Origin: a virus | IMG/VR virus record: IMGVR_UViG_3300050021_000841 | Span: 1 to 49,611 of that record | Strand: one strand, 5' to 3' | Length of the DNA: 49,611 bases | Shown: positions 3,784 to 7,046 of the stretch, piece by piece | How the letters are laid out: every line of letters begins with the position of its first letter | Numbering within the stretch: the stretch's first letter is position 1 | Notes under the pieces: generated by a model | What the model was told of the DNA's origin: nothing | Database searches by the model: none | The model's input: only the letters and a program-made list of their open reading frames with translations | Program-made: the position numbers and the translations under genes

Positions 3784-3995
3784 GGTCGCGGTTGTCGGGT
3801 GGTTGTCGGGGCGTGGTTGTCACCGTGGTACCACCCGTGGCGGAGCTTGAAACTGGTTGCCTATACTTCAGTTGGGTGCAAGTGAATTGCTAGTTGACTT
3901 GAAGTTAACTGCCAAGTCAAACGAGGTCAACAAGCGGTTAGCTCCTATGTATATGTAGTGTCTTTGTTCTTAAGTTCCTAAAAAGGCAAAAAGCG
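3784..3995 (+). promoter_or_regulatory. 212-bp regulatory gap upstream of the sigma-factor gene
   Basis: No credible gene. The left part has three direct GGTTGTC copies (3790, 3801, 3815). The right part is AT-rich and holds a perfect 8-bp inverted repeat, TTGACTTG (3894-3901) and CAAGTCAA (3913-3920), around an inner AGTTAACT palindrome (3903-3910), with one more GTCAA half-site at 3926. It probably carries the promoter and operator for the sigma-factor operon. I cannot point to a convincing -35/-10 pair, and a regulator is only inferred. Confidence 0.6.
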
Positions 3996-4604
3996 ATGGA
4001 AACGGTAACGGCGGGAGTGTGTCTGGATTACATGGCGATCTCAAGGCGGGCCATCGGGACGCTTCAGCGGAGGGGCGTCTGTGAATGGCTGGAGCGTGAG
4101 GAACTGATCGCGGAAGGCTGCCTGGCGTTATCCACGGTACGGCCGGATTCGGAGGCGCTGGCGGTGATTGTCGCGCGGCGCGCCATGATCGACGCGGTAC
4201 GGAAGAACGAACGCCGGGAGCGCGGTCGGGTGGAAGTGCGGGGCAGTGGCACGGATGGCGCCGAGGAGGCTTCGGACGGGGATCAGTGGGACGCGACGGT
4301 CTACGGCAAACAGAAACTGCAACCCGCCAACACTCACCCGGATCTCTGGGAAGCGATGAAGGCTCTGCCAGCGCGTGAGTATCAGGCGATCACGCTGATT
4401 TACTGGGGCGGCAAGACTCAGGCGGATGTCGCGGTTGAGATGGGGGTGTCGCGTCCGCGCGTGGCTCAGATCATCGCAAGCGCAGAAAAAAAGATTCAGA
4501 ACGCTCTTACAAATCGCACTCCTCATACGATTACTCAAGTGAGGGGGAAAGAAGCTACTGCGGACCGTCCTATCGGGCGGAACGGAGGAGGCGAAGGCCG
4601 GTAA
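3996..4604 (+). CDS. sigma-70-like RNA polymerase sigma factor
   Basis: Small sigma-70-family protein of 202 residues. The N-terminal half (about 30-78) resembles a reduced region 2, with LIAEGCLAL and the basic RRAMIDAVRKNER helix. A region 4 helix-turn-helix spans about 125-172, with the recognition part GVSRPRVAQIIASAEKKI. It probably directs host RNA polymerase to a set of phage promoters, perhaps the late genes that start about 3 kb downstream. Only a weak ribosome binding site precedes ATG 3996. It is the first gene after a repeat-rich control region and starts an operon with the next two genes. Confidence 0.82.
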   Translation: METVTAGVCLDYMAISRRAIGTLQRRGVCEWLEREELIAEGCLALSTVRPDSEALAVIVARRAMIDAVRKNERRERGRVEVRGSGTDGAEEASDGDQWDATVYGKQKLQPANTHPDLWEAMKALPAREYQAITLIYWGGKTQADVAVEMGVSRPRVAQIIASAEKKIQNALTNRTPHTITQVRGKEATADRPIGRNGGGEGR

Positions 4605-4921
4605 TGAGCTTCCAATTCCCAGAACGCAAGATTCCCCCCTCGACTTCACCTTCAGGCAACACGTACCCGGCTCTACTGGTGATGCGAGAGACGGCAGAGA
4701 TTCCGACTGCGGTTGATTCGGACACGCGAGACAGGGCGGCTCGGCGGATTACGCGCAACGTGCTCGATAACTTCTGGTTGGATATCGAGGATACTTCGTC
4801 CGCTCCGTTCCTACAACTGATGGACCGCGCCGGATACAACGAGTGCGCACGTAAGAATCGGGAACGAATCGCGCGAGAGTGCAATTCCGACAACCGGCTG
4901 TTGTTTCGGAAGGTGTCGTAA
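4604..4921 (+). CDS. hypothetical protein (105 aa)
   Basis: Unrecognised protein. The N-terminal 25 residues are Pro/Ser-rich, and the rest looks helical and charged (RDRAARRITRNVLDNF). Its ATG shares a base with the sigma-factor stop (TAATG), so the two are translationally coupled. That suggests, without proving it, a role linked to the sigma factor. Confidence 0.65.
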   Translation: MSFQFPERKIPPSTSPSGNTYPALLVMRETAEIPTAVDSDTRDRAARRITRNVLDNFWLDIEDTSSAPFLQLMDRAGYNECARKNRERIARECNSDNRLLFRKVS

Positions 4922-5094
4922 TGGCGCGGAAGACGGGCGCGATATCGGTTGAGGGCGAGACGGTGCATCCGCACTTCATGGAGTTGGCGAACGCGGCTGA
5001 GGATCGGCTGATTAAGCTGATCGACGGCGGCGAGGATCTGGCGGAGTGGTACTGGCGGCCGGATCTGCGGGACGTGATGCGCGGAGACGCTTAA
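4921..5094 (+). CDS. hypothetical small acidic protein (57 aa)
   Basis: Small protein of unknown function, coupled to the previous gene by TAATG. A helical acidic stretch (residues 19-40) is followed by WYWRPDLRDVM. An in-frame upstream start at 4879 exists but lies inside the preceding gene. It is the last gene before the long structured non-coding region. Confidence 0.6.
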   Translation: MARKTGAISVEGETVHPHFMELANAAEDRLIKLIDGGEDLAEWYWRPDLRDVMRGDA

Positions 5095-5860
5095 GCAGCG
5101 GACGCGGGATCACGGGGCGTCGGGGATTTCCGGTAGCTACGACGGGATAAACTCGCAACCGGGCCATTTCGCGGTAGTGGCATGGGGTGTACGTGATACT
5201 GCATAAGCGCCATGAAGCGCAAAAGGCGTAAGGGCTGCCTGGAATGCCAAGACAGCCGGGATAGACCGGCACTGAGGGGACAACTGGCTTTACCTGATTC
5301 TAAGCAACCCCGCAAATGCGACCAATCAGGAGGTTTCTTCGCTCCCTCCGGGACGGGTATAAATAGGCCGTCTGGTTAAAGCGTGGTGACTTTTGCGGCG
5401 TTGGGTTTCAATACGAAACTCACCAAAATTCCTTGTAACCGTGGGTAGGCGAGACACGGCCGGACCGATGTACCGGGGATGGCATCGGCGCACAATGCGG
5501 CGGGGGCGAAACGTCCACCGCGCGGATTCTCATAAGAGGGGACACCTGCAAGGGGTGATGAGTGAAATCCCCGTTTCCCGTGGCGAGCCGAGACGGTAGC
5601 GAAATCCGGGCGAACTGCCAGAGATAGCAACTGCGCTTCAGCCTGTCAGTAGGCAACACCTTCGCGCGGGCATGAACATTGAAAACATTAAACCACGATG
5701 ACTGATAGCGATTGAGACCCGGTACCGCAGAGTTAAATATGCCGATCAAGCAACCCAAGGCGGGCTGCGCGGCTCCAGGTAACGGGACTAAGCGTTAAAT
5801 CTCAACCGTACAAATGCGGGGCGGTCGGACTTGAAATCCGATTCGCCCCGCGCCGGTATT
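5095..5860 (+). ncRNA. candidate large structured non-coding RNA (about 770 nt)
   Basis: No ORF here looks like a protein, and base composition differs from the flanking genes. Perfect or near-perfect helices follow one another: 5233-5237/5253-5257; 5293-5299/5324-5330 enclosing 5311-5313/5318-5320; 5384-5389/5420-5425 enclosing 5405-5409/5415-5419; 5439-5443/5455-5459; 5465-5470/5483-5488; 5497-5500/5518-5521 enclosing 5504-5508/5512-5516; 5524-5533/5558-5570 (10 bp, 3-nt bulge) enclosing 5543-5546/5554-5557; 5595-5599/5615-5619; 5641-5644/5651-5654; and a strong 3' hairpin. Two helices use G-U pairs (5506-5514, 5597-5617) that would be A-C mismatches on the other strand, favouring + transcription. 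Large phage RNAs such as GOLLD and ROOL have similar size and context, but I cannot match either consensus. Group I and II intron cores and tRNA arms were looked for and not seen. Ends are approximate. Confidence 0.6.
5816..5851 (+). terminator. strong hairpin at the 3' end of the non-coding region
   Basis: GCGGGGCG (5816-5823) pairs perfectly with CGCCCCGC (5844-5851). An inner TCGGA/TCCGA helix (5825-5829/5837-5841) closes a 7-base loop CTTGAAA. No T-run follows. It probably closes or terminates the preceding RNA. The inner arm happens to look like a tRNA-Ser(UGA) anticodon arm, but no D or T arm is present. Confidence 0.6.
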
Positions 5861-5864
5861 TCCG

Positions 5865-6928: not shown

Positions 6929-7046
6929 GGGGGTGCATGGGTCCTTCCCGGCAGGTGACCGGGTGCGGGTTAATTAATGGCGCTGTTTTCCTAGCGACAA
7001 CTAATTCTGGTGGGTTGTCGGGTTGTCACTTTAAGGTTGTCACGCT
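6929..7046 (+). promoter_or_regulatory. candidate packaging (cos/pac) or control site upstream of small terminase
   Basis: This gap holds three direct GGTTGTC copies (7013-7019, 7021-7027, 7035-7041) and one inverted GACAAC (6996-7001), next to an AT-rich TTAATTAA tract (6969-6976). Two more inverted GACAACC copies lie within the start of the terminase gene (7130-7136, 7170-7176). In lambda, repeated small-terminase binding sites (cosB) and an IHF site lie just before Nu1. By that analogy this may be the packaging site; a transcription operator is the alternative, because the same motif trio occurs at 3790-3821. Confidence 0.5.

Follow-up and report, generated by a model that had tools for sequence, protein, structure and literature searches.

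A predicted modular structured RNA at the early/late junction of a phage genome and its relatives

Introduction

The late leader of lambda-type phages is arranged as pR'–6S RNA–tR' and works by Q antitermination, and RNase III processing hairpins are known in T7-like phages. Among the larger phage RNAs, GOLLD forms an RNA-only nanocage and its expression rises at lysis. GOLLD RNA (RF01998) is large, noncoding and phage-borne, with a conserved 3' domain and a more variable 5' part, and ROOL RNA is likewise large, structured and found in phages, with a function that is not known (PMC12286853).

The region described here lies within the window (the whole 49,611-nt stretch analysed, a 49.6-kb virus record from IMG/VR), which is phage DNA. 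Like GOLLD, it is large, noncoding and phage-borne, with a 3' domain better conserved than the 5' part; unlike GOLLD, it gives no covariance-model match at E values up to 10, has no tRNAs nearby and is reduced to 0.2 kb in one relative. Proximity to tRNAs is common, not universal, for GOLLD; here the region does lie in a phage, but no tRNA is present in the window or in the four closest relatives. The likeness to ROOL is that of a large, apparently structured phage RNA, but there is no covariance-model match and the region is not in a tRNA island. As in a lambda-type late leader, the region is noncoding, lies 3' of a transcription-regulator gene and 5' of late genes, and has a hairpin at its end; it is, however, much longer, has covarying structure, lacks a canonical U-tract in the window and follows a regulator that is sigma-like, not Q. 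A stable hairpin a few bases 5' of a start codon also recalls the T7-like processing hairpins, in which the conserved decamer and large upstream domains found here have no counterpart.

Genomic context and coding capacity

5095–5864, + strand: noncoding region from a 57-aa gene to the following start codon, in the same position in five lineages

The 57-aa gene (4921–5094) lies directly 5' of the region and the next start codon (5865) directly 3', and the neighbouring genes are on the + strand. Upstream are genes for a helicase, a DNA methyltransferase and a sigma-70 region 4 protein (3996–4604). Downstream is the late operon, encoding NinB/Orf, an HNH nuclease, the terminase small and large subunits, portal, capsid and further structural proteins. 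The replication genes (exonuclease, processivity factor, replication initiator and DnaB) are at approximately 36–47 kb, which places the region at the early/late junction. A separate 118-base gap at 6929–7046, 5' of the terminase small-subunit gene, contains repeated TTGTC words and is a candidate packaging site.

The preliminary description saw no plausible gene in the region, and this is upheld: none of the short ORFs inside 5095–5864 is backed by relatives, among which conserved protein coding in one frame was looked for and not found. Alignment with lineage L009 contains indels that are not multiples of three and break the frame, and coding is thus excluded.

Relatives and modular organization

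With the terminase and NinB proteins as queries, IMG/VR yielded four further lineages, L004, L006, L009 and L057 (terminase identity to the window 83% in L004, 73% in L006 and 65% in L009; NinB identity 73% in L057). In all five, the region precedes the o91/NinB genes, and it follows the 57-aa gene where the contig reaches that far; the L009 contig begins at the equivalent of window position 5332. Gene order around the region is the same in L004, L006 and L057. In L057 (2761–3919), a sigma-factor-like gene, seemingly split in two frames, lies between two copies of a 105-aa gene, and in L006 a group II intron match (1760–1842, 55 bits) is located upstream of the helicase gene.

The preliminary description proposed one large RNA of about 770 nt. 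This is not borne out, as the region ranges from approximately 0.2 to 0.8 kb, being shortest in L006, and its domains are present, absent or replaced among the phages. A 5' block is common to the window, L004 and L057, a middle module to the window, L004 and L009, and the 3' domain to the window, L009 and L057, with a divergent copy in L006. As judged from these comparisons, the predicted RNA is modular. Independent presence and absence of modules in different sets of lineages might also be expected of a cluster made up of several separate small elements, either RNAs or binding sites (sponges or processed small RNAs), in place of a single molecule, and the repeated UUAAA elements between helices could be read in the same way. 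Such a cluster is unlikely, given that the order of the modules is kept and that internal terminators were not found in the region.

Parts of the region are far more similar between lineages than the adjacent genes. Window 5332–5540 is 99% identical to L009 (adjacent NinB gene, 75%) and window 5263–5337 is 96% identical to L004 (flanking genes, 75–76%). Such islands would reflect strong constraint or, alternatively, modules that were exchanged recently.

Further homologues were sought outside the five lineages. There was no match to the region among the INPHARED phages. Exact DNA patterns (CCCGCGCCGGTATTT and GTTAAATAT..CAAGCAACC) gave only unrelated matches beyond the known lineages, the sole extra contig from the pattern CTGATTCTAAGCAACCC (L138) was also unrelated, a search with the 5' block pattern returned known lineages only, and extra matches to the pattern AAGCGTTAAA..ATCC..GGAT were attributable to chance. 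A model search of 250 genomes from the order to which a Bryobacterales relative belongs, and of 396 from its phylum, gave two matches, both explained by the GC hairpin alone. These searches indicate that the RNA family is rare or that sampling of it is poor. One Bryobacterales genome (L146) contains a NinB relative, but the region is absent 5' of that gene. Its NinB relative, together with the terminase relatives in 48 of the 250 genomes of the order, makes an Acidobacteriota host plausible. The stretch upstream of a distant NinB gene, in L062, contains a tRNA-Met gene (3916–3991), and the bases 5' of it also appear rich in inverted repeats.

Helices in the single sequence

5524–5570, + strand: 10-bp helix of the preliminary description, with a TGA bulge; present, and kept in L009 by near identity

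The helix 5524–5533/5558–5570, with its 3-nt bulge, can be read directly (GGATTCTCAT with ATGAG-TGA-AATCC), as can the 4-bp helix that it was said to enclose (CACC/GGTG). It gives no covariation, because the stretch is 92–99% identical in L009. Some other local helices, such as GGTAG/CTGCC near 5594–5620, are missing in L009. The unusual helix density on which the region was originally proposed does not hold: it contains six perfect local helices of at least 6 bp compared with 10.7 ± 3.3 expected from dinucleotide shuffles, and at least as many occur in 116 of the 128 windows compared from this genome. The minimum free energy (MFE) is likewise ordinary (z scores of −1.0 and −0.2 for the + and − strands, respectively), and the stability of sliding 150-nt windows within the region is mostly unremarkable. 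The proposal of a structured phage RNA was therefore sound in its conclusion, with covariation strong in the 3' domain and moderate in the 5' half, but not in its basis of helix counts. The helices backed by covariation mostly differ from those first described, the 3' domain being the firm part. Helix counts in one sequence can miss RNAs of this kind, which covariation finds.

The 3' domain

5708–5809, + strand: core of the 3' domain, P1–P4; eight double-change pairs across three lineages, and found in L006 by model
5712–5717/5800–5805, extending to 5708/5809, + strand: P1
5718–5721/5783–5786 and 5723–5726/5778–5781, + strand: P2, around a G.A mismatch, with covariation
5741–5744/5770–5773, + strand: P3
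5750–5756/5762–5768, + strand: P4, with an A.C mismatch
5730–5737, + strand: first single-stranded element, AG-GUUAAA, 3' of the 5' strand of P2; conserved in L009, L057 and L006
5791–5800, + strand: second element, AGCGUUAAAU, 3' of the 3' strand of P2; kept in L009, and in altered form in L057 and L006

Covariation was scored for P1–P4 and the terminal hairpin on an alignment (A5) made without reference to structure. In the 3' domain (5696–5864), compensatory changes are evident in the homologues: nine of 39 pairs change on both sides yet stay paired, compared with 3.1 ± 1.4 in shuffled controls (reached in 0 of 500) and 0–1 in slid controls, although these controls somewhat flatter the result because the helices were drawn by eye from the same sequences. 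P2, for example, reads CCCG-G-TACC/GGTA-A-CGGG in the window, CCTG-G-CATC/GATG-A-CAGG in L009 and CCTGCATC/GATGCAGG in L006. The alignment fold has a z score of −5.2, and none of 500 column shuffles reaches the real value; RNAalifold covariation terms, the sign of which is not settled, were left out of the evidence. A covariance model built from three lineages found the omitted L006 with E = 1.2e-10 over 545 kb, an approximate value that owes part of its score to sequence and comes from a test that was not fully blind, L006 having been viewed while the helices were drawn.

Taken together, the comparative data argue that the 3' domain is a real structure, the firm part of a conserved structured RNA encoded by 5095–5864. 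If the region were instead conserved intergenic sequence with chance helices, helix density and MFE at chance level would be seen in the single sequence, as they are; the covariation, set against shuffled and slid controls, and the detection of a fourth lineage by the model largely refute this explanation, which is now barely credible.

TTAAA occurs five times on the + strand of the 49.6-kb window, and four of these are in the region (0.36 expected from its composition). This contrast is partly trivial because the rest is mostly coding sequence, in which TTA and TAA are disfavoured; the conservation of unpaired UUAAA positions in several lineages is not trivial. The two GUUAAA elements flank P2 nearly symmetrically, one after each strand, a layout that could accommodate a dimeric protein or serve tertiary contacts.

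The 5' half and middle of the region

5113–5162, + strand: 5' conserved block, with helix 5130–5134/5158–5162 plus 5136–5137/5155–5156, an A.A mismatch and the loop TACGAC..TAAACTC
5255–5270, + strand: small hairpin GCCGG/CCGGC, the same in L004
5293–5330, + strand: helix CCTGATT/AATCAGG enclosing CGC/GCG, near identical in L004 and hence without covariation
5348–5375, + strand: hairpin CC-GACGG/CCGTC-GG with an AU-rich loop, kept in L004 and L057
5403–5421, + strand: hairpin GGGTTTC-AATAC-GAAACTC, kept in L004 with G-U/G-C exchanged at two pairs

The helix of the 5' block is CCGGT/ACCGG in the window, GCGGT/ACCGC in L004 and GTGGT/ACCAC in L057, with two pairs changed on both sides and none broken. 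Near the equivalent of 5255–5270, L057 has another hairpin (GAGGGT/ACCCTC), the individual pairs of which do not line up with these in the alignment. The hairpin at 5348–5375 shows two double changes, several G-U changes and one broken cell in L004 and L057. All proposed helices of the 5' half together give five double changes compared with 1.6 expected (1 of 500 shuffles), and the alignment fold z scores are only −1.7 and −2.3. Support for structure here is moderate, and weaker than for the 3' domain.

The G-U pairs exchanged at 5403–5421 work on the + strand only. Over the whole region, about six cells hold G-U pairs possible on the + strand only, compared with three on the − strand only, a small difference that favours a + strand RNA. 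It bears on whether the hairpins act as DNA, in a recombination site, origin or packaging site, as helices can be drawn on the − strand too (z = −5.6). A packaging site would be expected beside the terminase small-subunit gene, which is 1.2 kb away, and no recombinase was present among the subset of proteins searched. A DNA-level role is thus highly improbable.

The 3' boundary and possible function

5816–5851, + strand: terminal GC-rich hairpin, −25 kcal/mol; perfect stems of different sequence in L057 and L006
5852–5861, + strand: invariant decamer GCCGGTATTT, identical in the window, L009, L057 and L006

The terminal hairpin ranges from −23 to −27 kcal/mol across lineages, its stems differing in sequence while remaining well paired; support from L057 is understated because A5 places its hairpin two columns out of register. 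A start codon follows 0–14 bases after GCCGGTATTT, and the first downstream gene varies among lineages. As hairpin and decamer are unchanged before different first genes, the RNA ends at a boundary in its own right, which does not belong to any single downstream gene. The hairpin tail is GCCGGUAUUU, a poor U-tract, in four lineages. A true U-tract is present in L004 only, in which a canonical terminator hairpin with TTTTT (GGGCAGG..CCTGCCCTTTTT) takes the place of the 3' domain. A similar hairpin in L004 (3190–3226, ACAAATGCGGGGCC..GGCTCCGC) precedes a gene that, by eye, resembles one for a single-strand binding protein.

The RNA probably acts either as a late-gene leader or as a free-standing phage RNA. 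A cis-acting leader of the late operon, its hairpin serving in termination or processing, is favoured, at a probability of roughly 0.45, because of the position of the region and the terminator in L004. The sigma-70 region 4 gene upstream and the NinB and terminase genes downstream keep the same order in L004, L006 and L057, and the constancy of hairpin and decamer before different first genes is also consistent with a leader. Against this, a scan of the + strand of the region revealed neither a sigma-70 promoter-like site, although a phage sigma factor could recognize a different motif, nor a standard terminator-like site. In addition, the U-tract GCCGGUAUUU is poor, 0.5–0.8 kb is long for a leader, and the single-sequence fold is no more stable than chance.

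Most of the same facts would fit the main rival, a trans-acting, GOLLD/ROOL-like RNA expressed in the lytic phase, with the terminal hairpin as its 3' end. The full length of 0.77 kb with several independent domains, the 3' end that is fixed whatever the downstream gene (and is a true terminator in L004), and the islands of up to 99% identity, well above the neighbouring genes at 75%, are in keeping with such an RNA. The lack of an Rfam match to GOLLD or ROOL, the window without tRNA, the fall in length to about 0.2 kb in L006 and the constant position before the same operon make it the less probable of the two.

If the region is a leader, a modular structured RNA would be transcribed on the + strand at the early/late junction, with transcription crossing the region and the RNA folding into separate domains. 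The very stable hairpin of the 3' domain, with GCCGGUAUUU, may then terminate, pause or be processed just 5' of the first late gene. Recognition of the unpaired GUUAAA elements by a protein of phage or host origin, or by the late transcription complex, could let the late genes be expressed, the RNA acting in cis on the late operon.

Relationship to known RNA families

The preliminary description suggested a search of Rfam. In the current study, Rfam 15 gave no covariance-model match to the region at the gathering threshold, in the window or its relatives; the families absent from it include group I and II introns, tmRNA, riboswitches, ribozymes, GOLLD and ROOL. At E values up to 10, the window region, L057 and L004 gave chance matches only. 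Inspection by eye led to tRNA halves with an intron, integron attC sites, hammerhead, RNase P and group I/II introns being dropped as candidates. Of the two origins first considered, a divergent member of GOLLD or ROOL is therefore unsupported, whereas a new class is backed by the absence of any Rfam match beyond chance. The region is placed here, from sequence comparison, as a new family of structured phage RNA. It is tentatively suggested that this is a new class of modular RNA, ranging in length from a few hundred nucleotides up to 770 nt, with exchangeable domains around repeated unpaired UUAAA, which may control the late switch or form an RNA assembly of its own.

Large structured phage RNAs are few and their functions unsettled. 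A modular family located where early genes meet late ones, close to a sigma-factor gene, and with a compact natural version of 0.2 kb, would be a tractable system, in which comparison of the natural deletions may indicate which module does what.
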